IMG/VR virus record: IMGVR_UViG_3300048833_000369
Coordinates: 1-39,785 of that record
Strand: one strand, 5' to 3'
Source of the DNA: a virus
DNA length: 39,785 bases
Part shown: positions 50-39,708 of the stretch, one piece after another
Position numbering within the stretch: position 1 is the first letter of the stretch
Layout of the letters: every line of letters begins with the position of its first letter
Made by a program: the position numbers and the translations under genes
Notes under the pieces: model-generated
Told to the model about the DNA's origin: nothing
Seen by the model: the letters and a program-made list of their open reading frames with translations, nothing else
Database searches by the model: none

Positions 50-126
<77 letters not shown>

Positions 127-1268: not shown

Positions 1269-2459
1269 TCAGCCAAGAAGTCCAAGCAGGTTTTCGTCCC
1301 GCTCATCGAAGAAACCCCTCGGCCATTCCGAAAGGCTTCCGTTCTCGAGCACTCTCGGGCTGATCACTTGGGTTTCTGAACCGGCGCGAGTGAAGAAATG
1401 GATTCGCGTGTCTCGACCGTCCCAGAGCTGGTGCTTGACGTCGAGACGGACGCCGTCAAGGAAATGGTCGCTATGGGTCTCTATCAATACCTGAACACCC
1501 GACTTGGCTGCGCGCCCGGCAAGTTGTCCCAAGCGTGTTTGCCCTCTCGGATGAAGATGTGCCTCCGGATTCTCGATGATGACGAGATCTCCTGCCCGAG
1601 CACCAATAAGTGCGGTCAGTACCGGAAGGACATACGAAATCCCGAATCCTACGTTTGTGGCCCTGAAGGCTCGAGACTGAACATCGCCCTTTCTGCTGTA
1701 AGCGTATCTGGCAGAAAGTGCGTCGATCTCACGCATTCGAGAGATGTCAAGCGTTGCTCCAGGGCTGGTCTCCTGCAGCCAAGATGAAACTTGCCCTTCA
1801 ATCGTCAAAACGCCCTCGGGATCACGCACCCGTGGATCGGTCTCGTCTAGAACACTGCCCCCAAACTCAGCAAGGAAGGCAAGAACATGCTCCCCATGAA
1901 CGCCGAGTGATCTCGTCGCCGCTTGCTCGCTTGACCACGGAAGCGACTTTCTTGGTCCGAACCGTTCTGCTGACAGATATTGAAAGCCAGATGTCGAGAA
2001 CAACGAGGCCAAACCTGCCCCTGGGAAGCTCCGCTGGCCGTCGGGCCGATAGTCTACCCATTCACCGTTTGAATTCAGCATCTTGTCGCTGGTGGCTCGC
2101 CCCGCAAACCCAGGCATCACAAGTGACAGCCGGTCATTCTCCCGCGAATACTGATAGCGATACTCAATCCGTCTTGACTGCTCCAACTCGAGCACGAACG
2201 CTATGGCGTCCTGATCTGCAAGATCGAACAGTGCGTCTTCGCCGGTCCCAAGGTCGATGAGGTCGCCAGATAGCCGTAGGCGTCTTTGCAATCTCTGGTT
2301 TGATAGTGACTGACGTAGGAGAAGAAAGGCTTGGATTGTGCTGCTCTTGCCCATGCCGTTCAGTCCAGAAAGAACCGTTAGGGCTCCCAAATCAACTCGT
2401 TGTTTACGAAAGCACTTGAAGTTCTCGAGTTCTATTGCCGAAACACGCGGATTACGCAT
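1269..2459 (-). CDS. AAA/ABC-type ATPase, DUF3696-like
   Basis: This 396-aa SMC/RecF-like ATPase opens with the AIELENFKCFRK segment typical of OLD/RecF-type AAA proteins. It has a Walker A motif GLNGMGKSS (32-40, Lys38), an ABC-signature-like region ATNVGFGISYVLPVL, a Walker B/D-loop IIENPEAHLHP (about 293-303) and a switch histidine in ETHSDHF. The C-terminal segment ending in EWPRGFFDERDENLLGLL resembles the DUF3696 tail. I chose the ATG at 2459 because AGAAGG lies 9 nt upstream and the start overlaps the DUF262 stop by 8 nt (ATGCGTAA), a coupled arrangement. An in-frame start at 2480 is less likely. ATPases of this type usually act as the sensor or motor of anti-phage systems together with an adjacent nuclease-like partner. 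Confidence 0.9.
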   Translation of the reverse strand: MRNPRVSAIELENFKCFRKQRVDLGALTVLSGLNGMGKSSTIQAFLLLRQSLSNQRLQRRLRLSGDLIDLGTGEDALFDLADQDAIAFVLELEQSRRIEYRYQYSRENDRLSLVMPGFAGRATSDKMLNSNGEWVDYRPDGQRSFPGAGLASLFSTSGFQYLSAERFGPRKSLPWSSEQAATRSLGVHGEHVLAFLAEFGGSVLDETDPRVRDPEGVLTIEGQVSSWLQETSPGATLDISRMREIDALSARYAYSRKGDVQSRAFRATNVGFGISYVLPVLTALIGARAGDLVIIENPEAHLHPRGQTRLGQLAGRAAKSGVQVLIETHSDHFLDGVRLDVKHQLWDGRDTRIHFFTRAGSETQVISPRVLENGSLSEWPRGFFDERDENLLGLLG

Positions 2460-3606
2460 CGCTAAGAGCCTTCTGAACAATCATTTCGACGGTTTCGAAC
2501 CGTTTTCTAACACGACCTGGAACCCCGGTTGCATACGAAATGGAGACCTCAAAGTCTCGATCCTCAGCGAGTGTTTGCATAAATAGCGCCTGAACACGCT
2601 CTTTTCTTTCGTAAAGGGTGCTAAGCTCTTCGCTAGAAAGCGCAGCCAGTGTAACTGACCAAGTTTCGAATAGAGCCTTGCTAATCGGGCTGCGTGGCGC
2701 ATCAGCCCGGTAGCGCTTTCTGAAAGCATCATCTCCGAAGATTTCGAAGGCCGCCCGCATGGCAGCTTCAAATGCTTCGCGAATAGAGCTGCGTTCATTC
2801 GCTGAAGCATCATTGACCGACTTCATTGCGGCGTTCAAAAAACCATCAAGATCATTGTTACGATAGTTACCCCACCTCACGAGGCGAAATGCAACAAATC
2901 GCAAGGCGCATTCGCGTGCCGACATCCGTACGTCGCTGACGCTGCCCTTTGTAGCCTCTTGAAATGCATCAGTTTGAATTAGGTCCGCAAGGAACTTTCT
3001 TACCGGCCCCTTGTTAAGCGCATGGCGTATCTCTTGTGAGTTGAGTGTCATTCCGCCAGTATTAATCCGGCTAAAGATATTGAACATCACCTCTTCGGGG
3101 GTGCCCGGTTGGATAACGTTCATTACCAGCTCTGTCTCTTCAATGCGGCGCTGCATGTTTCGTGGAAGGTCCGCAAAGGACTTTCCGTCGAATTGAGCCA
3201 AGTATTCCAGGCCCCTAAGCGGGAACAACCCCTTAAGAAAGTCGTGAATAGTGGTAAGGCGCTGCAGGCCGTCTACTACTGACCAGGCATCCTTGTTGTC
3301 GCTTGCGACATAAAAAACGGGTAACGGGATACGCAGCAATATAGACTCAATAAGGCGCCCCTTCCGTGCAGAATCCCAGATTCGTGCGCGACGCTGAAAC
3401 TCTGGCGCTAGATCAATTTCGCCATGGTCAATTCGAGTGCTGATGAGCGAAATGGTCTTAGTTTCCCGTGCGACCTTGATTTTGTCTGGATCAAAAGGCC
3501 GTTCGATTGGCAGGATCTCGTTTGAAGGGTCGGGCAGTTCTTCCTCGACTCCGGTCGGTTCATCGTCTTCGATGTTTTCAACGATACCCTTTTCTTTTTC
3601 GCTCAT
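2452..3606 (-). CDS. DUF262 domain protein (ParB/Srx-like, GmrSD-N type)
   Basis: A 384-aa protein with an acidic N-terminal tail (about 1-38) followed by a clear DUF262 domain: PEFQRRARIWD (68-78), KGRLIESILLRIPLPVFY (82-99) and the signature DGLQR (112-116), a variant of the family DGQQR motif. FSRINTGGMTLN is the second conserved DUF262 block. DUF262 is the N-terminal, nucleotide-handling domain of GmrSD-type IV restriction enzymes and occurs in several defence systems. No HNH/DUF1524 domain follows, so a partner would have to supply any nuclease activity. It is the first gene of the leftward cassette and overlaps the ATPase gene. The 148-bp gap to the holin gene should contain the cassette promoter. 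Confidence 0.9.
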   Translation of the reverse strand: MSEKEKGIVENIEDDEPTGVEEELPDPSNEILPIERPFDPDKIKVARETKTISLISTRIDHGEIDLAPEFQRRARIWDSARKGRLIESILLRIPLPVFYVASDNKDAWSVVDGLQRLTTIHDFLKGLFPLRGLEYLAQFDGKSFADLPRNMQRRIEETELVMNVIQPGTPEEVMFNIFSRINTGGMTLNSQEIRHALNKGPVRKFLADLIQTDAFQEATKGSVSDVRMSARECALRFVAFRLVRWGNYRNNDLDGFLNAAMKSVNDASANERSSIREAFEAAMRAAFEIFGDDAFRKRYRADAPRSPISKALFETWSVTLAALSSEELSTLYERKERVQALFMQTLAEDRDFEVSISYATGVPGRVRKRFETVEMIVQKALSDA

Positions 3607-6772: not shown

Positions 6773-9700
6773 TCAAAGGGTGATGTCGAGGATCGCGCCG
6801 CGGCCCAGCGCGCCGACCTGCGCGATGCGAAACGCGAGGGAGCCGGAAACCGGTGCGCCGAAGTCGGCTGTTTGCAGCGCCGCCGTATAGGTGAAGGCGG
6901 GGGTGGTGAGGCCGGACACCGTGCGCACCACCACCGCCCCGTTCAGCACGTCGAGTTCATAACCCTCCGCCGCCTCACTAAGCGGCACCTCTGTCAAGGC
7001 CCAGTTGTCGCCCGCAAAGGCCCGGGTGCGGCGGGTCCAGCTGAGGGCGATATCGCCGCCGGGCAGGTTGACCCGTCGGGCGTGACACGGCCGCCAAGGC
7101 CGCAAGCCGCGCGCCGAGGGCGCGAAGGTGACGGCCAAATTCGCGGGATCGCCTGCGGGCTTGCTCGAGGCGCCGATCCGCCAGTTCCAGGCCGCGCCAT
7201 AATCGGCGCTGCCGATCGGCAGTGGTTTGACCCCACCGTCCAGCACAACGACACGCGCCCCGGCGGGGGCCGGATTGGCGATGGCGTCCTCGGTGCCCAA
7301 GAGCCCGCGGAGCAACCGGGTCAGTCGCCAGCGCCCGGGGGATTGCAGGCTGGCGGTGGCGAAACCGACAATCTCCCACAGATCGGGGGCCGTCTCGATC
7401 GCCAACCAGTTCGTGCCAGAAAACACCGCCGCATCGCTGACGCTGGCGAACTGGCCCGCAATCATGTCGACCCAAAGCTCATTGCCCCGGTCGAAGCGGT
7501 TGGTGGGTCCGGCATAGAAGGGAAAGGCCAAGGTGCCGAACCATCCTGGCCGCGAAATCGTCGTCAGGACTGCAAACCCGTCCGTCGATGCCGATCGCCA
7601 GACCGCCGCCGTGCCATACCACGGGGCAGCGTGGGCCGCGGCATAGGGCTGCCAGTCCGGGAAATCCTCCGAGAGCTGTGGCAGGTTCATCAAGGCAACC
7701 AGCGGCGGCCCATAGACGGCCCTCGCCCCGGAAGTCGCGCCGCGATCGCTGCCAGGGGCAAGATCGTAAATCGCCCGATCCGAACGGCGCGCCTCAACCC
7801 GCCGCCCAGCGCCATCGGTGATCGAGGTCAGGGCGAATTCGATCAGGCGGTTGTCGTGGTCCAGCAGGATCACATCGGCGGGGTCCAGCGCCAGGCGCGA
7901 CGGCGGCAAGGTGAAGCTCGCCTTCTCGCGCCCGACCCAGGCCTCGAAGAGGGCACGGCGGACCCCGCGCTCGGCAGAACCGCTGGTCGAGGCGATAGGC
8001 AGTTGCTCCGCCGAAATCCGCGCCGCGTCGACGGTGATCCGGCGCGCCTCCACAGTGATGCCTGCGAATTCCTCGTCGCGCGCCATCAGGCGCCACTTGA
8101 GGGCGAGGGGCAGTTCGGTCTCTTGCGCGCGGGTCAGTTCCAGATCCTCGGCCTCGCGGCTGGCAGCGACGAGGCTGTCGAGGGTGATCGTGGCCACCGG
8201 CCGCTGCCCCCGCATGCGGAAGCGGATTTTGCCCTCGGCCTCGAAGGCGTCGAAGCCGAAAAGGCGGGCGAGGGTCTCGATCGAGGCGCGGGGGCTTTCG
8301 ATCGCGTTGACCGCAAAGCCCGGCACAGACCCGGCCAGATTGGTGACATCGAGGTTAGCAGCAATCCCAGCGCGGGCGCAAAGTTCGGCCACGAGTTCGG
8401 CAAGGCCCGTCGCCCCGGCGCGGCCGGTAAGCCAATGCCCCAGCCGCCAGTTCTCGGCATCGGACCAGACATCGCTGCGGGCCGGGAAGGCCGGGAAGGG
8501 GCGGGCGTCCCATGTCCAAAGGGCAATCTCGGCGGTCTCGATCATCCGGCCGGAATAGAGGGACGCCGAGGGGTTGTTGGCCGGATTGGCCCAATAGCCG
8601 ATCAGGGCCTCGGCGTAGCGGCGCTGGATGAACTCGTCCGGCCAGCCACGCGAGAAATGCGGCAGCAGGGATTCCGAAGATTTAGGATCGACGAAGACAT
8701 TCGGCTGGTTCGTGCCGCGATCGACGCAAGGCGCACCTGCTTCGGTAAATCTGATCGGTTTTGACCCCGGCACCCAAGCCGTCGGCCCGCCGCTTTCCAC
8801 GCCACCGGGGCGGTTGATGTGCGGCTGGCTCCACCAGTTCCGCAGGTCCTTCGGGCGGAAAACCCAAGGCTTGCCCGCACCATCGGTGATGGGGGTACGG
8901 ATTTGCGCCAGGCGATCGGCCGAGGAGGCGTAGAACCAGTCGTAGCCTTCGCCGCCTTCGATGTTGGCTTGCAGATAGGCGGTCTGGTGCGGGCCGGTCC
9001 ATCCGGCCAGGGCGTCGATGTGATCGTCACCGTCTCGCCAGTCGGAGAGCGGCAGGTAGTTGTCGATGGCCACGAAATCGACATTCGGCGAGGCCCAGAG
9101 CGGGTCGAGGTGGAAGAACACGTCGCCGGTGCCATCCGCGGGCTGATGGCCAAAGTATTCCGACCAGTCAGCGGCATAGCTGACCTTGGTGGCAGGCCCG
9201 AGGATGGCGCTGACGTCGGCGGCCAGTTGCACAAAGGCGGTGACGGCGGGATAGGTCGAGGCGCCGGAGCGGATTTGCGTGAGGCCGCGCATCTCGGTGC
9301 CGATCAGGAATGCGTCCACGCCCCCGGCCGCGGCGCAGAGATGGGCATAATGCAGGATCATCCGACGCAGGCCCCAATCGCTGGGGCTGCCGGTGAAGCT
9401 AACTGTCGTGCCCGAGACCGCGAACTGCGCGGGTGCGGCCGACCCGAAGAAGGCCGCAACTTGTGTCCCCGCCGCGGCCGTCTTGTCCACCGTGCCCGCG
9501 AAGCCTGCCGCGGGGCTGCAGGTGATCCGCCCGCGCCAAGGATAGACCGGCTGGCCGATGGTGGTGCCGTTCGGCGAATAGGGGTTTGGCAGGGTGTTGG
9601 CCGCCGGGATATCCATCAGAATGAAGGGGTAGAAGGTGACGCGCTTCCCCCGGGCCTTCAGTTCCTGAATGGCCTGCACCACCGCCGCATCGGTCGGCGT

Positions 9701-10741
9701 GCCGCCATAGGCCGGGCCGCCGTTGACGGTGGAAACGACATGCGCCGCGGCGCGTGTCACACCGTTCACCTGCCAAACCATCGGGGTGGTGGTCTTGGTG
9801 GTGGATTCGACGCCTGGCTTGATCTGGCAATTGCCCGCGCGCAGATCGGTGCCGAACCAAGAGACGACGAGGGAGACGGCCTCGCACTCCGGCAAGGCGG
9901 CGTCCAGTCGGTTCAGCGAGGCCACAAGATCGGGCAGACCTTCGACGCTGTTCTCGTTCTCCGGAGTGGCGGTGCCATTGCCGCCGCCGCTGTTCCAGAG
10001 GCCAGGCGCGGCCGTGGTGCGGGTGACGGTCTGGGTGGCATAGACGAACTCGCCTGCCGAGGGGATCAGGTTCACGGCACGGACAAGGCGCTCCATGGCG
10101 GCGGGATCGGGCGAGGGCCGGATCACCTCGAAGGACAGTTGCGGCAGCCGGTTCCCGAAACTCTCGAGCGCCAGATCCTCGAACACGACATAGGCGACGC
10201 CACGATAGGCCGGGGCTTGCCCAGCGCCCTCCTTTGCCTCGATGAAGGGATCGGGCATCTGGCTTTCCGTGCCGAGATGCACCCGGATCACGGCGCCCGG
10301 CACATCGAAGGGTTTGCCATCGGCCCAAATGCGGCAAACGCCGCCGATCGGGCCCTCGCACAGCGCCACGGCGAAGGAGGCGTAGTAGCGATAGCCTTCG
10401 GTCACGACCTTGGGCCCGCTGCCTTTGCCGCCGCCTTGGGTCTGGCGGAACTGCTCTTCGCGGAAATCCGTGGCCCAGATGATGTTCCCTCCGAGCCGCA
10501 TCGTGCCGTAAAGCCGCGGGATCACGGCGCCTTCGGTCGCCGAGGTCAGGCGCAGATCGTCAAGCTTCGCCCCTTCGATCCGCTGGTCGGGGGCGAGGGA
10601 GCCGATGATCAGGCTGTCGATGACGGAGCCCGCGAACGACCCAATGGCGCCGCCGATCGTGGCGGCGCTGAAACCGAGAAACGCACCACCGAAGGCGCTG
10701 CCGATTGCGGAACCGGCGGCGGCGAGGAGCATGGTTGCCAT
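6773..10741 (-). CDS. GTA-type tail-tip host-specificity protein (megatron, GTA-TIM)
   Basis: This 1322-aa tail-tip protein is homologous in layout to R. capsulatus GTA g15. It has a hydrophobic N-terminus (MATMLLAAAGSAIGSAFGG), then a conserved block VIPRLYGTMRLGGNIIWATDF. A GTA-TIM glycoside-hydrolase-like barrel occupies about residues 430-730 (VDAFLIGTEMRGL, VSYAADWSEYFG, FVAIDNYLPLSDWRD, IRFTEAGAPCVDRG). Phage-tail_3-like beta domains form the C-terminal half. The barrel is thought to help penetrate the cell envelope. I chose the ATG at 10741, 5 bp after the NlpC/P60 gene; the in-frame open stretch beyond it lies over the NlpC/P60 gene. Length matches the family (about 1300 aa). Very long opposite-strand open frames across this gene are high-G+C artefacts. 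Confidence 0.95.
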   Translation of the reverse strand: MATMLLAAAGSAIGSAFGGAFLGFSAATIGGAIGSFAGSVIDSLIIGSLAPDQRIEGAKLDDLRLTSATEGAVIPRLYGTMRLGGNIIWATDFREEQFRQTQGGGKGSGPKVVTEGYRYYASFAVALCEGPIGGVCRIWADGKPFDVPGAVIRVHLGTESQMPDPFIEAKEGAGQAPAYRGVAYVVFEDLALESFGNRLPQLSFEVIRPSPDPAAMERLVRAVNLIPSAGEFVYATQTVTRTTAAPGLWNSGGGNGTATPENENSVEGLPDLVASLNRLDAALPECEAVSLVVSWFGTDLRAGNCQIKPGVESTTKTTTPMVWQVNGVTRAAAHVVSTVNGGPAYGGTPTDAAVVQAIQELKARGKRVTFYPFILMDIPAANTLPNPYSPNGTTIGQPVYPWRGRITCSPAAGFAGTVDKTAAAGTQVAAFFGSAAPAQFAVSGTTVSFTGSPSDWGLRRMILHYAHLCAAAGGVDAFLIGTEMRGLTQIRSGASTYPAVTAFVQLAADVSAILGPATKVSYAADWSEYFGHQPADGTGDVFFHLDPLWASPNVDFVAIDNYLPLSDWRDGDDHIDALAGWTGPHQTAYLQANIEGGEGYDWFYASSADRLAQIRTPITDGAGKPWVFRPKDLRNWWSQPHINRPGGVESGGPTAWVPGSKPIRFTEAGAPCVDRGTNQPNVFVDPKSSESLLPHFSRGWPDEFIQRRYAEALIGYWANPANNPSASLYSGRMIETAEIALWTWDARPFPAFPARSDVWSDAENWRLGHWLTGRAGATGLAELVAELCARAGIAANLDVTNLAGSVPGFAVNAIESPRASIETLARLFGFDAFEAEGKIRFRMRGQRPVATITLDSLVAASREAEDLELTRAQETELPLALKWRLMARDEEFAGITVEARRITVDAARISAEQLPIASTSGSAERGVRRALFEAWVGREKASFTLPPSRLALDPADVILLDHDNRLIEFALTSITDGAGRRVEARRSDRAIYDLAPGSDRGATSGARAVYGPPLVALMNLPQLSEDFPDWQPYAAAHAAPWYGTAAVWRSASTDGFAVLTTISRPGWFGTLAFPFYAGPTNRFDRGNELWVDMIAGQFASVSDAAVFSGTNWLAIETAPDLWEIVGFATASLQSPGRWRLTRLLRGLLGTEDAIANPAPAGARVVVLDGGVKPLPIGSADYGAAWNWRIGASSKPAGDPANLAVTFAPSARGLRPWRPCHARRVNLPGGDIALSWTRRTRAFAGDNWALTEVPLSEAAEGYELDVLNGAVVVRTVSGLTTPAFTYTAALQTADFGAPVSGSLAFRIAQVGALGRGAILDITL

Positions 10742-32527: not shown

Positions 32528-33493
32528 TCAGTAGATTTGGTGGGCGCGCAGGGTGGCCTCGGTGACGAGGCCCGCCCGCAGCAGGGCATCGCGCTGGGTG
32601 TTCGTGACGGCGCTGGGCGGCACGTAGGCACCGGAGTTCAGCCAGGCGGCCAGGGGCGCCAGCCGGTCCTCGGGGCTTATGGCTGGGCCGCTGGGCGCAA
32701 CGGCAGGGCCAGCGCCAGCTTCCCCAGCACCTTTCGCCTTTGCCGCTTGGGCGATCCGCTTGGCATGGCGCGCTGCGATCGCGTGGGCGAAATACTCCCA
32801 CGTGCGGATCGGGCTGCCTCGGGGCTTGGCCGTGCGTTCGGCGATCACCGGCAGGACGTCCAACTCGAGGTCGTAGCCTGCCTTCAGCCAAGCGCCGATC
32901 GTGGCCGTGGTGCCAGTGATCGCCGCCCTGGCGGTTTGGGTCATCCCCTCGCCGCAGGCGGCCAGACAGGCGGCCTCTGCCGCGTCCAGATCGGGGCCCT
33001 CGTCGTCAGCCGAAACCTCGGTCCGGGCCTCGCGCGTCGCGCCCGCGTCACGCGCGGTAGTAATTACCGGTTCTTTACTTACAAGGTTAGTGTCCAGATT
33101 CTGGACATGGCTTTTCGCGAAATCTGGACATGGCTTTTGCCCCTTTCCATGTCTGGAATCTGGACATGGGTCGGGCCGGTTTTCGGCCGCCAGCGGCAGT
33201 TCCGCCTGGGCTGAAAACTCAGGCTCGAAGGCCAGGAAGTACCGGGTTGATTGCCGCCGGTGGGCGCCCTCGGAGTGGCGCCGCTCGCGGCGGATCAGCC
33301 CGGCCTGTTCCAGCTTGTCGAGATGCACGTTCAGGCTGGCGCGGGAGATTTCGGCATCGGCCGCCAACTGGTCCTGCGACGGGAAGCACCCGTAATCCGG
33401 GTTGTGCCGATCGCAGAGATGCCAGAGGACGAGCTTGGTCGCAGGCGCCAGACCGCGCTGCTGGATCGCCCAGTTGGTGGCACGATGGCTCAT
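32528..33493 (-). CDS. Winged-helix replication-initiator-like protein
   Basis: A 321-aa protein with an N-terminal winged helix-turn-helix (about 1-75: ATKLVLWHLCDRHNPDYGCF, DAEISRASLNVHLDKLEQAG, LIRRERRH). A low-complexity hinge follows (about 105-165), then a helical C-terminal domain (EYFAHAIAARHAKRIAQAAK, ending LVTEATLRAHQIY). This layout resembles phage O-type initiators or helicase loaders. The DNA encoding the hinge (residues about 108-135) carries a cluster of iteron-like repeats, as in lambda O, whose gene contains the origin. The gene starts inside the stop of the 33490 gene (ATGA). It could instead be only a transcription factor; no ATPase or primase motif is present. Confidence 0.8.
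   Translation of the reverse strand: MSHRATNWAIQQRGLAPATKLVLWHLCDRHNPDYGCFPSQDQLAADAEISRASLNVHLDKLEQAGLIRRERRHSEGAHRRQSTRYFLAFEPEFSAQAELPLAAENRPDPCPDSRHGKGQKPCPDFAKSHVQNLDTNLVSKEPVITTARDAGATREARTEVSADDEGPDLDAAEAACLAACGEGMTQTARAAITGTTATIGAWLKAGYDLELDVLPVIAERTAKPRGSPIRTWEYFAHAIAARHAKRIAQAAKAKGAGEAGAGPAVAPSGPAISPEDRLAPLAAWLNSGAYVPPSAVTNTQRDALLRAGLVTEATLRAHQIY
33091..33169. repeat. Iteron cluster (TCTGGACATGG) with adjacent AT-rich tract: candidate phage origin
   Basis: The 11-mer TCTGGACATGG is present at 33100-33110, 33123-33133 and 33159-33169. An inverted 8-nt copy TGTCCAGA is at 33091-33098 and an inverted two-mismatch copy at 33147-33157. The first two direct copies share the extension CTTTT. 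The inverted and direct copies form two closely spaced dyads (33091/33100 and 33147/33159). An AT-rich tract (33057-33090), unusual for this genome, lies directly beside the array. Iterons plus an AT-rich unwinding region inside an initiator gene is the lambda ori plan. Confidence 0.65.
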
Positions 33494-33684
33494 AGCGCGG
33501 CCGTCACCGTCAGCCGCTTCACGATCGCCTCCATCAGCGCGATCCGCAGGTGCGCGTCGTCCTGGCGCATCTTTCCGGCCCGCACCCGGGCCCAGTAGAA
33601 CTGGCGGCGGAGGTCAAGTTCGCGCTGGGCTTCGGCGATCAGGGCAGCCACCGGAAACCGGCCTTCAGGGGTGAGTTTGGTCAT
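33490..33684 (-). CDS. Small hypothetical early protein
   Basis: A 64-aa protein (MTKLTPEGRFPVAALIAEAQ, then RELDLRRQFYWARVRAGKMR, then HLRIALMEAIVKRLTV) predicted to be mostly helical and basic. It lies between the excisionase-like gene and the winged-helix gene, overlapping the latter by ATGA, so it is co-translated. An alternative ATG 12 nt upstream (33696) would abut the preceding stop. I know no family. Confidence 0.7.
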   Translation of the reverse strand: MTKLTPEGRFPVAALIAEAQRELDLRRQFYWARVRAGKMRQDDAHLRIALMEAIVKRLTVTAAL

Positions 33685-33697
33685 TGGCGCCCCCATT

Positions 33698-33952
33698 TCA
33701 GCGCCGCCCGGCCACGGCCTTGTGCTGGCCGGTCTTGCGGGCTTCCTGCTCCTTCAGCCAGTCGCGGACAGCCTCCTTGCGGTAGAGCACTTTGCGGCCA
33801 ACCCGCACGCAGGGCGGCCCCACGCGCCGGGTTTCCCAGCGCTGCAACGTGTCGACCGACAGGGCCAATTGCCGGGCCAGTTCCGCCCGGTCGAGCCAGC
33901 CATCCAGCAGCGCCGGATCAGCGCCCGCGTCCTTCAAGATATTGTTATCCAT
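33698..33952 (-). CDS. Excisionase-like helix-turn-helix (MerR/HTH_17) protein
   Basis: An 84-aa protein with a MerR-type helix-turn-helix at residues 18-70: WLDRAELARQLALSVDTLQR, WETRRVGPPCVRVGRKVLYR, KEAVRDWLKEQE. This is the AlpA/Xis/HTH_17 family used by temperate phages for excision control or early transcription. The ATG at 33952 has GAGGAG 6 nt upstream and follows a 52-bp upstream element shared with the integrase gene, which supports a role in the integration/excision switch. It heads the leftward early operon. An open extension to 34078 covers the regulatory region and is not coding. Confidence 0.85.
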   Translation of the reverse strand: MDNNILKDAGADPALLDGWLDRAELARQLALSVDTLQRWETRRVGPPCVRVGRKVLYRKEAVRDWLKEQEARKTGQHKAVAGRR

Positions 33953-34025
33953 AAGTTTCTCCTCGCGCCGCCGCCCCGGGGATCGGGACCGGTCATCGGC
34001 CAGGAGAGGCAAGCACGGGGCAGGG

Positions 34026-34077
34026 ACCGGCGAAGAGGCGGAAACCGGCGGAAAGGAAAAGGGAATTACGCCGGTCA
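34026..34077 (-). repeat. 52-bp upstream element, copy A (leftward, before excisionase-like gene)
   Basis: Read leftward, this stretch matches 35757-35808 at 45 of 52 positions by my alignment, with a continuous identical run of 19 nt (CCTTTCCGCCGGTTTCCGC at its core) extended to CTCT. Both copies are preceded by GCCCAGCG. It ends about 73 bp before the ATG at 33952. CGCCGGTT/AACCGGCG half-sites recur within it and again at about 34094 and 34114. It is best read as a shared operator/promoter region. The stretch 34078-34266 between this element and the next gene holds only such half-sites and no gene. Confidence 0.75.
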
Positions 34078-34266
34078 CGCTGGGCTGTAGTTCAACCGGC
34101 GAAACGCACCGCGCAACCGGCTTGATTGGCGACAGGTTTATGACAATCTGAGGGGGAGCAGTTCACAACAGATTCGCCGAAACGTCGCCGCGCCCGGAAG
34201 GGCGAGGTGCACGGCCCCTGTGCGTTCAGGGGCTGGAGAAAGGAGGGCGGTAACGGGGGGCAGGTA

Positions 34267-34857
34267 ATGGCGTTTGTCGCCCGGAATTTCTATTCTGTTC
34301 TCGAGACTTCCTTCCGCTGGGAGTGCAGCCAGACCGAGATTGTCGATCTGGCGATGGCCGAGAAGATCGACCTCGTCATCGCGCTGCCGAACGTACGGTT
34401 CGATGATGGAACCGAGGCGACGATGGGCGTCATTCAGGGCGGCGTCGTGCGTCCCTTGTTCCGGGGCTACGGTGTGCTGGAGGAGCAGGTCTTCATCCGT
34501 CAGGCACGCCCTCCCAATTGCGGCTGGAAACGCATCGAAGAGCCCAAAGAGGGCATCCGGGTGATGGCGCCTGACGTTCTGATCATGGCGGCCGAGGTTG
34601 AGCGGTTCGAAGACGAAAATGGCCTCGTACGGCGGGTCGTATCGGGCCCCGGGGCGCAGACCCGCTACGACTGGGACGGGTTCTACTGCGAAATCATCTG
34701 CCGGGTCCAAGAGCGCGGCCTACCCACCAAGCAGAAGGAACTCATCGACGATATGGTCGATTGGTTCCTGAGCAGATCGGTCAACGGGGATGCCCCGGAC
34801 GATTCAACAATCCGAAAGAAGATCAGAGGCTTCTGGGGTCGACTCCGGCCCGACTAG
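34267..34857 (+). CDS. Hypothetical protein beside the early control region
   Basis: A 196-aa protein (MAFVARNFYSVLETSFRWEC, then SQTEIVDLAMAEKIDLVIAL, then PNVRFDDGTEATMGVIQGGV) with a beta-rich centre (FRGYGVLEEQVFIRQARPPN, MAPDVLIMAAEVERFEDENG). Its C-terminal helix-loop segment LPTKQKELIDDMVDWFLSRS with DDSTIRKKIRGFWGRL is a tail I have seen in many Rhodobacterales prophage and plasmid proteins without known function. It diverges from the excisionase-like operon across 314 bp and converges with the CoiA-like gene 9 bp away. It occupies the place where a phage repressor would be expected, but no helix-turn-helix is visible. The start is taken at 34267, because the upstream in-frame extension from 34207 is not protein-like. 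Confidence 0.75.
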   Translation: MAFVARNFYSVLETSFRWECSQTEIVDLAMAEKIDLVIALPNVRFDDGTEATMGVIQGGVVRPLFRGYGVLEEQVFIRQARPPNCGWKRIEEPKEGIRVMAPDVLIMAAEVERFEDENGLVRRVVSGPGAQTRYDWDGFYCEIICRVQERGLPTKQKELIDDMVDWFLSRSVNGDAPDDSTIRKKIRGFWGRLRPD

Positions 34858-34866
34858 TTCAACGAT

Positions 34867-35607
34867 TCACCTGCGCCAGTATCGTAGTCGATAGCGGGGT
34901 TGGATTAACTGAGCGAAAAGGGCCTCATGGACGCTTTGCCAATCAAAGATCGCAGCCTCGCCATCAGCGATTTTGACGAGGGTGGACCTGTGAACCGGGA
35001 AGTAGAGGGCCTTTTCCATGAACCTGCTTGGTAGCAGACACATCAGATGGCTTTGTTGGCTTGAAGCGCCCTCGGTGCCAAGCCCGTCAAAGTCGAATAG
35101 GACGGGCACCGAGCAGTTAAGCCACATCCTTGGAAAGTAGGCTCCTGGAACGTGTACTTGCTGGACAATTCCCTCGGGCAGCACATGCCAGCCAGGATGG
35201 TTCTCATTGATGCGCGGTCGGTCGCTTTTCAGGCGAGTGCAGTCAACGATCCAGAGCATCTTCCGATAGAAATCTTCACGAGACTGTCGCTCCGCCGCCT
35301 TGATGGACGAGTGTTGGAACTCGATAACAAGGCCATTTGGCGTCTTGATGTCGGCAATATGGATTTCTCCCGTCGGCGAACGGTGCACGGATTCCTGCCA
35401 TTCCCTTGGAAAGAGGTTCTTCCATTGCCGGTGCCATTCTGTTTCTGGCTCCCACCAAGGATCGCACACTCGCTTGCCTTTGTGGGCCCAGTGCCAGACA
35501 CGTTCAGTACCACATTTGGCAATCACAGGCTGCGCGCAGCCAGGGCATTGACCAGCGAAACCGGGTTCAGGTTCGCGACGTTCGCCGTCAACCAAAGAGA
35601 ACTTCAT
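34867..35607 (-). CDS. CoiA-like competence-family nuclease
   Basis: A 246-aa protein with the CoiA architecture. It has an N-terminal zinc-ribbon-like segment (Cys21, Cys24 in CPGCAQPV; Cys32), then WHWAHK (39-43) equivalent to the CoiA HFAH box, then EPETEWHRQWKNLFP (the conserved E/H/K helix), then a PD-(D/E)xK-like core with Asp86 (HIADIKTPNG) and Glu96-x-Gln98 (VIEFQHSSI). The C-terminal third is less conserved. CoiA acts on DNA or recombination intermediates during natural transformation; phage-borne relatives are probably nucleases. The ATG at 35607 has AAGGG 7 nt upstream. Lower G+C than the core and its position between the two inverted 52-bp elements suggest accessory cargo. Confidence 0.82.
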   Translation of the reverse strand: MKFSLVDGERREPEPGFAGQCPGCAQPVIAKCGTERVWHWAHKGKRVCDPWWEPETEWHRQWKNLFPREWQESVHRSPTGEIHIADIKTPNGLVIEFQHSSIKAAERQSREDFYRKMLWIVDCTRLKSDRPRINENHPGWHVLPEGIVQQVHVPGAYFPRMWLNCSVPVLFDFDGLGTEGASSQQSHLMCLLPSRFMEKALYFPVHRSTLVKIADGEAAIFDWQSVHEALFAQLIQPRYRLRYWRR

Positions 35608-35756
35608 CCTTACGCCCTTCGAACTAGGTCGTGCCTGAAAGAGAACTTGCGTGGAGCGTAACCTTCGCCGGGCCGTTGTGTCGATATATGGTTGTCGGCC
35701 CACGCGCCGGTGCCAAAGGTAGTACTTCAGCTAACATTTTCTGCCCAGCGCCGCCC

Positions 35757-35808
35757 TGACCGGCATAATTACCAGGACCTTTCCGCCGGTTTCCGCCTCT
35801 GCGCCGGT
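35757..35808 (+). repeat. 52-bp upstream element, copy B (rightward, before integrase)
   Basis: This is the second copy of the element at 34026-34077, in inverted orientation on the map but in the same orientation relative to the gene it precedes. It ends 66 bp before the integrase ATG, against about 73 bp in copy A. Similarity stops at the element edges, so this is not a general duplication of the gene starts. The rest of the 267-bp gap 35608-35874 has no gene that I can support. Confidence 0.75.
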
Positions 35809-35874: not shown

Positions 35875-37104
35875 ATGAAGGCAAAACTCTCTGAACGCGT
35901 TGTAAAGGCTGCTGAAATCGGCAGCCGCAAGTATGTCCTCTTCGATGAGGATACCCCTGGCTTCGGGCTCTGCGTCTACACCACCGGGCGCAAGGGGTTC
36001 GTGCTGATCTACCGGATCGCAGGGCAGCAGAAACGCTTCACGATTGGCGTCTGGCCGACATGGTCGGTGACCGCCGCCCGGGATGAGGCCAAGCGCCTGA
36101 TCCGCGAGATCGATCGCGGCGAGGACCCGCTCGACACCCGCAAGGCCGCCCGCGGGGCGCCCACGGTCAAGGAACTGGCCGAGCGGTTCATCGAGGAACA
36201 CCTGCCGAAGCTCGCCCCGACCAATGCCTCGGACCAGAAGAGCATGCTGGAAAAGCTGGTCTTGCCAGAGTGGAAGAACCGCAAGGTGGCGGACATCACG
36301 CCCACCGACGTCGATCGCCTGCTGACCAAAATCGCCGCCGGGCGGGCGCGGCCGTCGAAGAAGAAACCCACCCAGAAGCGGCGCAAGAAACTGGCCCCGC
36401 CCAAGCCCACGCCGGTGCGGGCCAACCGAGCTGGGGAGATGCTGCGCAAGATGTTCAATCTCGCCATGCTGTGGAAGATGCGCACCGACAACCCGGCCTT
36501 CGGGTTCCGCCGCCGCCCCGAGGTGGCCCGTGACCGGTTCCTCTCCTTCGAGGAGATCGAACGCCTGGCCAACGCCCTGGCCGTCGACGAAGATCAGCGC
36601 GCCGCCAGCATCATCCGCCTCTGCATGCTGACCGGAGCCCGGCTGGGCGAGGTCCGCACGGCGACCTTCGACCAATTCAACCTCGATCTGGCCATCTGGA
36701 CCAAGCAAGCCGCCTACACCAAGCAGCGCCGCATCCACCGCGTGCCGATCTCGCATGAGGCGGTGGCCCTGATCCGCCTGCGGCGGGAAATCGTGCCGAA
36801 GGGCTGCCCCTTCCTCTTCCCGGGCGACGTCCCCGATCAGCCGGTCGGCGATCCCAAGCGCTTCTGGCCCAAGATGCAGAAGGTCGCCCAGATCCCCGAC
36901 GTCCGCATCCACGACCTGCGCCACACCTTCGCCTCGCTGCTGGTTTCCGGCGGCGCATCGCTGGAAATGATCGGCCGCCTCCTCGGTCACACCCAGATCG
37001 GCACCACCCAGCGCTATGCCCACCTGATCGACGCACCCCTGCGGGCCGGGGTGAACGCCGTGGGTGAGATGCTGAAGCCGCGGTTGCGTGTGGTGGGGGA
37101 GTAG
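35875..37104 (+). CDS. int: Tyrosine site-specific integrase (P4-like, DUF4102 arm domain)
   Basis: A 409-aa tyrosine recombinase that integrates and excises the prophage. Residues 1-85 form a DUF4102-type arm-binding domain (GFGLCVYTTGRKGFVLIYRI, KRFTIGVWPTWSVTAARDEA). Residues about 95-190 form the SAM-like core-binding domain, with a long basic insertion (RPSKKKPTQKRRKK). The catalytic set is complete: Arg256 (TGARLGEVR), His346 and Arg349 (HDLRH), His372 (LLGHTQIGTT) and Tyr381 (QRYAHL). AAAGGAG lies 7 nt before the ATG. The family often uses tRNA genes as attB, consistent with tRNA-fMet at the other end. The gene reads outward, so attR should lie downstream, between 37105 and 37281 or beyond the next genes. 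Confidence 0.96.
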   Translation: MKAKLSERVVKAAEIGSRKYVLFDEDTPGFGLCVYTTGRKGFVLIYRIAGQQKRFTIGVWPTWSVTAARDEAKRLIREIDRGEDPLDTRKAARGAPTVKELAERFIEEHLPKLAPTNASDQKSMLEKLVLPEWKNRKVADITPTDVDRLLTKIAAGRARPSKKKPTQKRRKKLAPPKPTPVRANRAGEMLRKMFNLAMLWKMRTDNPAFGFRRRPEVARDRFLSFEEIERLANALAVDEDQRAASIIRLCMLTGARLGEVRTATFDQFNLDLAIWTKQAAYTKQRRIHRVPISHEAVALIRLRREIVPKGCPFLFPGDVPDQPVGDPKRFWPKMQKVAQIPDVRIHDLRHTFASLLVSGGASLEMIGRLLGHTQIGTTQRYAHLIDAPLRAGVNAVGEMLKPRLRVVGE

Positions 37105-37281: not shown

Positions 37282-39708
37282 GTGGCAACAAAGAAGCCGG
37301 GAAAGAACCCTGCAAAGCACTATCCGGATGCTGTTGGTGAGGTTCACCGTGATGGAGACTGGCTTTGGGTCCCACTCCGATCGGAGTGGCGCGATGTGTC
37401 CGCGAAACCAGAGGAAATCGTCCGGCAGAACTATATTCGTCACCTGATAGATCATTATGGCTATTCGCTTGATCAGATGGATCAAGAGAGGCGAACGATG
37501 CACGGCCACAAGAGTCCACGGGCCGATATCGTTATCTGGGAAAGTGCAACCACGAAGGCAAATAATAACACGCCCGTTCTGGTGGTTGAATGCAAGTCCG
37601 AGGCAGTTGATATCAACATCAAGGACTATTACCAGGGTGAAAGCTATACTCGGGCCGTTGGATGTGAATTCTTCGTCGCTCACAACACCCGCTTTACGGC
37701 GGTGTTCAAGCTCGTTCCTGGCCTGCCAGGGGATTTCGTGCAGATCAGCGAAATTCCAAAGGCAAGCGACTGGGGCGATGCGAAACGGATAGAGGAAATA
37801 AAGAACAAGCTTAGGGCGTTTAATCGTAAAGAATTTCAAGACCTTCTATTCAAGTGCCATTCGATCCTGCGTGACGTGCACAAGATGGACCCTGGCCGGG
37901 CCTTCGACACGATCTCGAAAATCCTGTTCGTGAAGATGTATATCGAGCGATCTGGCCTACACGGCACCTTCACAGTTGATTTTATCGACGCCCGCGCAAA
38001 GGTGCGTCTGCCGACCGATCCTGCTGTCCATGACGGGCTCTTCGAACAGACCAAGACTTACTACAGGGCCGACGATCTCTTCACGGCTGGCGACAGGCTC
38101 GACATTTCCGAGGACACCTTTCGTCGCATCGTCAAGGAATTACAGGCATTCGACCTCTCAAAGACCGGCGACGACATCAAGGGCCTCGCCTTTGAGCGTT
38201 TCCTCGGCACCACCTTTCGCGGCGAACTTGGCCAGTTCTTCACGCCACGCCCGGTCGTCGATTTCATGGTCAGCATGCTTGATCCGAAAGAGGGTGAATT
38301 GATCTGCGATCCCGCGGCGGGATCGGGTGGCTTCCTCATCCGCGCGTTCGAACATGTGCGCAGCCAGATCGGCGGGGCGATCCAGGCAGACAAGGACAAG
38401 GCGCGTGCCGACATCGAAGCGCTTGGCCTCGATCCGGACGAGGAAGAGCGGAGGATCGACGAGGCCTTCGCTAAACTGAACAGAGAACTTCTGCCCTCGG
38501 ATGATCAGAACAAGCCGGTCGATACCCGTGTTGGGCGCCTCGCCTGGAACTGCATCTTTGGCACTGATGCCGAGCCGCGCGCTGCTCGCACTGCCAAGAT
38601 GAACATGATCATGCATGGCGACGGCCACGGCGGCATTCACTACCATGATGGGCTTGTCGACATTAACGGCATCTTCCCCGGCCGCTTCGATGTCATCATC
38701 ACCAATCCGCCTTTCGGCTCGAATGTCGGCGATGATCAGAAGGTCGGCGGCAGCGATGAAACGCGCGTATACAACGATCAGGCCTATAAGGACCGATGCA
38801 TTGCCCGCTATGGCGCGCCCTGGCAGGAAAGCCACGAGCGGATGCTCGCGGCCTCGACCTCACGCACGAAAATCCTTGATCTGTTCGAGATCGGCAAAGG
38901 TAAGGCCAACCGCGCCACTGAGATCGTCTTCGTTGAGCGCTGTCTGAATCTTCTGAAGCCGGGCGGGCGGATCGGCATTGTCTTGCCCGACGGCAATCTC
39001 AACAATCCGTCCCTCACTTGGCTGCGACGTTGGTGCGAGGGCAAGGCGAAAATCCTCGCCGTCGTTGGCCTGCCTGAAGAAACCTTCCGGTCGGCGGATG
39101 CGACCGTAAAGGCCTCACTCGTCTTCCTCAAGCGCTTCACAGAGGCCGATCAGGTGGCTTGGGATGCCGCTTGGACTGCCGCCCATGCAACCCTTGATGC
39201 GGCCTTCAACGCAGAGCGAGACACGCTTTGTGCAAGTTTCGGGCCGCGCATCATCTCGGGTGATGACAAGGATGCCGCGGATGTCCTGTCCAAACTCTCT
39301 GCGATTGGCGTGAAACGCGTGCCGCCCGCGTGGTTCTCTGCCGATCCGCCGCCTTATCCGAAAAGCATCGGCGCGACCAAGCTCAAGAGGGTCGGGTGGG
39401 ATGACCAAGCGAAGGACCGCAAGCAGGCGGCGGCGCTGAAAAAGGACTATGCTGCCGCGTTCACCGACGATGTCACGAAGACGGCGGATTCGCTCACACG
39501 CGAACTGGCGGGCGCCTTGCGCGGCGTGGACGAGCGCCACAACACAGCCCTTTGGACGCATGTGCGCGAGGCGTTCGACTATCCTGTGTTCGTCGCCGCA
39601 CCGAAGTCGGTCGGCATCACCTCGACGGGCGAGACGGGTGAGAATGTGCCGACTGACTTGCCAGCCTTGCTAGGGCCTGTGGACATTCAGGATTCCCAAC
39701 CGGTCTGA
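37282..39708 (+). CDS. Nuclease-DNA methyltransferase fusion (HsdR_N + HsdM; BcgI-like RM subunit)
   Basis: An 808-aa protein. Residues about 38-165 form an HsdR_N-type PD-(D/E)xK nuclease domain, with PEEIVRQNYIRHLI, Asp82 (RADIVIW) and Glu103-x-Lys105 (VLVVECKSE). Residues about 190-330 are the HsdM helical domain (GRAFDTISKILFVKMY), leading to ELGQFFTPRPVVDFM. The methyltransferase has motif I DPAAGSGGF (from Asp343) and motif IV NPPF (from Asn475). The last 200 residues form a helical region that may contact a specificity subunit. The start is GTG at 37282 with AAGGAG 8 nt upstream. A nuclease fused to an N6-adenine methylase with a separate S subunit is the plan of type IIB enzymes such as BcgI. 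A type I locus with a separate HsdR further right remains possible. It lies 177 bp past the integrase. Confidence 0.9.
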   Translation: MATKKPGKNPAKHYPDAVGEVHRDGDWLWVPLRSEWRDVSAKPEEIVRQNYIRHLIDHYGYSLDQMDQERRTMHGHKSPRADIVIWESATTKANNNTPVLVVECKSEAVDINIKDYYQGESYTRAVGCEFFVAHNTRFTAVFKLVPGLPGDFVQISEIPKASDWGDAKRIEEIKNKLRAFNRKEFQDLLFKCHSILRDVHKMDPGRAFDTISKILFVKMYIERSGLHGTFTVDFIDARAKVRLPTDPAVHDGLFEQTKTYYRADDLFTAGDRLDISEDTFRRIVKELQAFDLSKTGDDIKGLAFERFLGTTFRGELGQFFTPRPVVDFMVSMLDPKEGELICDPAAGSGGFLIRAFEHVRSQIGGAIQADKDKARADIEALGLDPDEEERRIDEAFAKLNRELLPSDDQNKPVDTRVGRLAWNCIFGTDAEPRAARTAKMNMIMHGDGHGGIHYHDGLVDINGIFPGRFDVIITNPPFGSNVGDDQKVGGSDETRVYNDQAYKDRCIARYGAPWQESHERMLAASTSRTKILDLFEIGKGKANRATEIVFVERCLNLLKPGGRIGIVLPDGNLNNPSLTWLRRWCEGKAKILAVVGLPEETFRSADATVKASLVFLKRFTEADQVAWDAAWTAAHATLDAAFNAERDTLCASFGPRIISGDDKDAADVLSKLSAIGVKRVPPAWFSADPPPYPKSIGATKLKRVGWDDQAKDRKQAAALKKDYAAAFTDDVTKTADSLTRELAGALRGVDERHNTALWTHVREAFDYPVFVAAPKSVGITSTGETGENVPTDLPALLGPVDIQDSQPV

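Follow-up and report, generated by a model that had tools for sequence, protein, structure and literature searches.

A repeated 52-bp element upstream of the excisionase-like and integrase genes as a predicted co-evolving operator in Rhodobacteraceae prophages

Genes and repeats of the xis-int region

The stretch of viral DNA analysed here, called the window throughout, comprises 39,785 nucleotides and carries a leftward early operon and, to the right of it, a rightward integrase gene. The operon is headed by a gene (33698-33952, minus strand, ATG start codon at 33952-33950) for an 84-amino-acid winged helix-turn-helix protein (Pfam HTH_17, 3e-8), referred to as xis. A longer version of this frame matches the PHROG 66 excisionases (3e-10), and weak similarity to PDB structures was found for lambda Xis (E 0.008) and RdfS (E 0.13), as for a small winged-helix protein of the Xis/AlpA type. 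It is followed by a small gene assigned to phrog_19667 (33490-33696, minus strand), which is not universal in relatives, by an O-like replication initiation gene (32528-33493, minus strand; PHROG 345, 9e-30) and by further leftward genes. In the xis leader of the window (33960-33990) and of many relatives, a short G+C-rich hairpin of the type CCCCGA...TCGGGG was noticed by eye before the ribosome-binding site.

The tyrosine integrase gene int (35875-37104, plus strand) encodes a protein with an Arm-DNA-bind_3 domain (Pfam) that is 98-99.5% identical in the closest relatives. Between xis and int lies a gene termed unk (34267-34857, plus strand; PHROG 13283, 2e-97), whose 196-amino-acid product has neither a Pfam relative nor a significant PDB match in a fold search; its AF2 model (pLDDT 83) has helical N- and C-terminal parts. 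A second gene, with a CoiA_N domain (34867-35703, minus strand; Pfam, 1e-8), occupies the space between unk and the int-side element. Queries with unk and the CoiA gene gave no match in phage records. Defence-like genes are found at both ends of the window: on the left an AAA_21 ATPase and a GmrSD_N protein (1269-3606), on the right an HsdR_N/N6-methylase fusion that follows int (37282-39708).

Upstream of xis and int, respectively, lie the two copies of the element under study (34026-34077, minus strand, and 35757-35808, plus strand), both of which are kept in front of the same genes in relatives. The original prediction had described them as an inverted duplication enclosing an unknown gene and a CoiA-like gene, and these details were reproduced exactly: once reverse-complemented, 35757-35808 agrees with 34026-34077 at 45 of 52 bases, including an unbroken run of 23 bases (AGAGGCGGAAACCGGCGGAAAGG), the distances to the start codons are 73 bp (from 34026 to xis) and 66 bp (from 35808 to int), and the enclosed genes are phrog_13283 and the CoiA_N gene. 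Likewise, the similarity ends outside the element, as the blastn alignment (83% overall) runs on for only about 10 bp. Four of the seven differing bases are adjacent. In a self-BLAST of the 39.8-kb window the pair is the sole strong repeat (E = 4e-9; next best E = 0.07), and with a matrix derived from window-type loci the copies score 52.8 and 52.0, compared with 0.5 for the next-best site of the window. A blastn search of a phage collection with the element region returned no DNA match, and no sigma-70 promoter was recognised near either copy.

Related prophages and gene layouts

Exact matches to a 20-bp core of the element were found in viral contigs and genomes. Related loci, about 55 in total and 46 after removal of redundancy, come mostly from Rhodobacteraceae and carry xis, int and usually phrog_13283, with unk adjoining int in about 40 of them. 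Within the family of Rhodobacteraceae bacterium QY30 (G001), 37 of 395 genomes contain unk, which almost invariably has an integrase of the same family as its neighbour. At class level (289 genomes), full-length unk matches occur in G001 alone, with two C-terminal matches elsewhere.

Eight window-like prophages carry the inverted pair at a distance of about 0.85 kb, flanking unk alone. Compared with the window, their int is 98-99.5% identical and their Xis approximately 94-98%, while unk reaches only 47-89%. The window-type element pair is kept in L003/L010, L004, L007, L009, L013, L016, L021 and L031, and divergent clades keep an element pair with other sequences. The CoiA gene is absent from all other loci compared and, judged from this distribution, is an insertion private to the window that looks like cargo in a free slot. 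Relative to L007, the stretch containing it (34858-35742) replaces about 10 bp between unk and the int module (9697 to 9708). The unk gene itself is mosaic: in L004 and L016, the N-terminal half (cf. 34267-34560 of the window) is a distant variant with the C-terminal half and flanks alike, and in L013 unk differs along its whole length.

Gene order differs considerably between the loci. The window-like layout, with xis leftward and both unk and int rightward, is present in six of the 46 loci. In 21 loci int is flipped and faces unk, so that the copies are direct repeats; int and xis are adjacent and divergent in 17, and the remaining two loci are without a full unk. Since the orientation of each copy follows its downstream gene, the inverted arrangement seen in the window is a by-product of gene layout. 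In clades B and C (e.g., L122, L136 and L114), the DNA separating the element from the int start codon contains a conserved block, CTTGATA...ACGCCTCATGTCGG, which the window clade lacks. A third copy of the element (3087-3124) was found in L156 between xis and unk, besides the xis and int copies.

Anatomy of the element

Most element types reduce to a 24-bp consensus, KCCRSY-N2-CYGCCT-N4-KCCRSY. In its strict form, this 24-mer occurs 59 times in 342 kb (both strands), and all of these are confined to the 150-bp regions upstream of xis (31) and int (28), where they begin 86-98 bp ahead of the start codon. An inverted half-site is located 25-26 bp upstream of the first half-site in 42 of the 59 cases, at five to six of six matches. 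Hence, the length of 52 bp results from an inverted half-site, a 20-bp spacer, a half-site, GCCT and a second half-site, with the sub-sites at -26, 0, +10 and +18; the tandem ones (0, +10 and +18) are approximately one helical turn apart. On the int side of the window these are ACCGGC (inverted, 35759-35764), GCCGGT (35785-35790), GCCT (35795-35798) and GCCGGT (35803-35808), and on the xis side, read on the minus strand, ACCGGC (inverted, 34075-34070), GCCGGT (34049-34044), GCCT (34039-34036) and GCCGGT (34031-34026).

The two half-sites within an operator are more alike than half-sites taken from different operators (5.08 versus at most 4.78 of six matches), and the inverted half-site co-varies with its own half-site (5.20 matches versus at most 4.81 upon permutation). 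In 23 of the 28 int promoters with a consensus match, TTGAT follows the element at 18-19 bp; no -10 sequence fits well, and therefore no promoter was drawn from it.

Matching of the two copies within a prophage

Alignment of the element in related prophages shows that the upstream regions of xis and int share an element in 43 of the 46 non-redundant loci, in the same orientation relative to each gene; in most, some 60-75 bp separate its near edge from the start codon. A clear match between the two upstream regions is lacking in three loci (L075, L124 and L141). Distant relatives are without the sequence of the window, and each of these prophages has an element of its own that is common to its xis and int upstream regions. 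The alignment score between these regions averages 59.8 for the own pair versus 27.3 between prophages, and DNA just upstream of the element, used as neighbouring control, scores 15. None of 20,000 permutations reached the observed own-pair score (best permuted value 38.6), a statistic to which relatedness of the prophages contributes, since the permutations mix pairs from different lineages. In 16 of the 46 loci the own partner takes the top rank, and in 28 it is among the best three, as is expected if close relatives share types. Across lineages, the half-sites are of the types GCCGGT, GCCACC, TCCACC (found in clade B) and TCCGGT, with changes matched at both promoters.

Function is favoured over simple descent because the identity of the element exceeds that of its flanks, its position is fixed and gene order changes around it. 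If the copies undergo gene conversion, this could raise their similarity further, yet it would leave the fixed position and the family-wide consensus unexplained. Conservation and co-variation within prophages strongly support the proposal of a single operator shared by both promoters.

Different element types also coexist in single genomes. A window-type and a clade B prophage with different elements reside on one chromosome of G001, and at least five matched element types are present in the genome G393. The presence of several different matched types within one genome makes a host regulator unlikely as the binder, and this reading was rejected. In G001, the two loci of different clades (L114 and L115; G001:C1, 1236001-1276000) have their unk genes 12 kb apart, with a 3' fragment of tRNA-Met between them, and the window-like int present there matches over residues 1-244 only. 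G393 contains eight unk matches (L141-L145, L148, L154 and L157), that is, many co-resident prophages or remnants of this family.

Proposed regulation and candidate binding proteins

Taken from sequence comparison, the 52-bp element is probably the co-evolving operator of a phage-encoded regulator that couples int and the early/excision operon, and this regulator is likely the Xis-like protein. The predicted operator fronts the two genes that set the direction of recombination, int and the xis gene heading the early/excision operon. One phage-encoded DNA-binding protein would read both copies, and its level would set the expression of int and xis together. As a winged-helix protein, the Xis-like product would act on its own promoter and on that of int, as RdfS does and much as Apl does, and it may activate or repress each of them.

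Several observations bear on the identity of the reader. Just four of the phage genes tested are general, namely xis, unk, int and the O-like initiator. Operator distances correlate with those of Xis and unk almost equally well (Mantel correlations of 0.88 and 0.86), whereas the partial correlations are 0.44 for xis, 0.28 for unk and -0.01 for int. In a jackknife, the difference between the xis and unk partial correlations was always positive (0.09-0.21). Operators stay close in pairs of prophages whose Xis proteins are close and whose unk proteins are far apart (0.50 versus 0.86 when both are far), and in L004, L013 and L016, where unk has a distant variant of its N-terminal half, the element is unchanged. 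Because the operator follows Xis slightly better and unk has been exchanged without a change of the element, Xis is favoured over unk, and from this analysis the Xis-like protein appears most likely to be the reader of the predicted operator; the two proteins are not fully separable, since none of the pairs compared combines close unk with distant Xis. The tandem sub-sites, about 9-10 bp apart, would fit the head-to-tail binding of RDFs (PMC7498355, PMC11963761). An inverted half-site, in contrast, is not typical of head-to-tail RDF arrays and counts against the Xis-like protein as reader.

It is unlikely, though still worth weighing, that the predicted operator is real and is read by the phrog_13283 product encoded beside int instead of by Xis. 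The unk gene adjoins int in all layouts, follows the operator closely in the Mantel comparison, and sits in the window clade where a repressor would, with no XRE repressor recognised there among the genes scanned; according to the structural model, its small helical parts could bind DNA. Its partial correlation is nevertheless below that of Xis, recombined distant variants adjoin an unchanged element in the window clade, and the protein is without a relative in Pfam or PDB.

Rather improbable is a phage lysogeny repressor of other identity that would bind both copies and thereby silence the early operon and int in the prophage. The xis side is the early promoter region, and in L005 an XRE repressor and an ImmA-type peptidase adjoin it, with homologues in L008, L041 and L044. 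These genes, however, occur in only four loci, compared with 43 of 46 for the element pair, which rejects XRE/ImmA as universal binder, and they are not among the general genes named above.

Returning to the Xis-like protein as preferred reader, its relation to the attachment site needs consideration. The attachment core corresponds to the 3' end of a tRNA-Met (50-126, plus strand), which recurs in direct orientation at the two ends of the prophage in a relative contig. Beside it, direct repeats GGTCAACA (192-215, strand unassigned) represent putative arm-type sites of Int; they flank attL and attR of relatives and are unrelated in sequence to the 52-bp element. In a contig of Gemmobacter aestuarii, a 43.9-kb prophage is bounded on either side by a copy of the tRNA 3' end; its int is located about 10 kb from the nearer end, and GGTCAACAATAGGTCAAC repeats resembling Int arm sites are present at each end. 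At the att arms, no site matching the element was detected, the best matrix score being about -15 versus 52 at the promoter copies. Since binding at att is expected of a true excisionase, this absence counts against the Xis-like protein as reader. Degenerate versions of the element may still occur at att, and an excisionase role of the Xis-like protein is not claimed.

The same data bear on a reading of the element as arm-type sites of the integrase and part of attP. Repeats near int are often arm sites, and Int possesses an arm-binding domain. Yet other repeats (GGTCAACAATAGGTCAAC) border the att core on either side, and in a complete window-like prophage about 10 kb separate this core from int. 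Int makes no further contribution to operator variation once Xis and unk are accounted for, and a second copy of the element is situated at xis. With GTCAAC arm repeats of its own at att and the element absent beside the att core, this reading was rejected as very improbable.

That the copies are inverted recombination sites flipping the segment between them, an alternative raised by their inverted arrangement around a discrete segment in the window, is contradicted and has next to no probability left, as the homologous pair is direct in the 21 loci with flipped int, the intervening gene has one and the same orientation in all window-like loci, and such sites would be mismatched at seven of 52 bases, including four in a row. 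A reading of the copies as transposon ends bordering the segment was dismissed as well, since relatives retain the pair around unk alone and each copy stays with the gene downstream of it.

Comparison with known systems

RdfS of ICEMlSymR7A from Mesorhizobium binds its own promoter and that of intS, activating PintS and repressing PrdfS, and its sites at attP are without consensus (PMC11963761). The system described here resembles RdfS/IntS in belonging to an alphaproteobacterial winged helix-turn-helix excisionase family in which, in the case of RdfS, the promoters of excisionase and integrase are coordinated. It differs by a discrete, co-evolving predicted operator at both promoters, which in the window clade lies far from att.

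Apl of phage 186 binds direct repeats one helical turn apart, for which three adjacent sites are needed, and represses early promoters (PMC7498355). Similar to Apl, and to Cox of P2-like phages, the Xis-like protein is a small HTH protein encoded by the first gene of an early operon, with predicted direct-repeat sites at helical-turn spacing. Apl, however, acts at pR-pL and att, whereas the element is found at the xis and int promoters, includes an inverted half-site and has no match at att.

RDFs of the P4 and KplE types are cited in PMC7498355 as repressing int, and AlpA of CP4-57 is listed in PMC8249747 as acting on the intA operon. Regulation of the integrase promoter by an excisionase-type protein, as given in these accounts, is likewise what is proposed here. 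In P4, regulation proceeds via sites inside att next to int, whereas the prophages studied here would use a dedicated operator that is repeated at xis. XisF4 binds its own promoter as well as a replication promoter (PMC7379572). Finally, SetCD of SXT/R391 drives int and xis from two separate promoters (PMC4542580); a single element-encoded regulator for separate int and xis promoters is also proposed for the prophages, but SetCD is an activator complex of unrelated type whose genes lie elsewhere in a conjugative element, while here the candidate regulator is one of the two target genes.

Significance for prophage coexistence

It is conceivable, if somewhat short of an even chance, that this Rhodobacteraceae prophage family uses a specificity-typed int/xis operator by which several prophages resident in one chromosome each control only their own int and xis. 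If true, operator typing would insulate such prophages from one another much as immunity types do, but at the level of recombination genes. The sites bound by RDF-type regulators often show little consensus in sequence. Here, dozens of paired, co-varying operators together with their presumed reader proteins make the recognition code of Xis-type proteins directly testable, and the same set makes it testable how co-resident prophages avoid triggering one another's excision.
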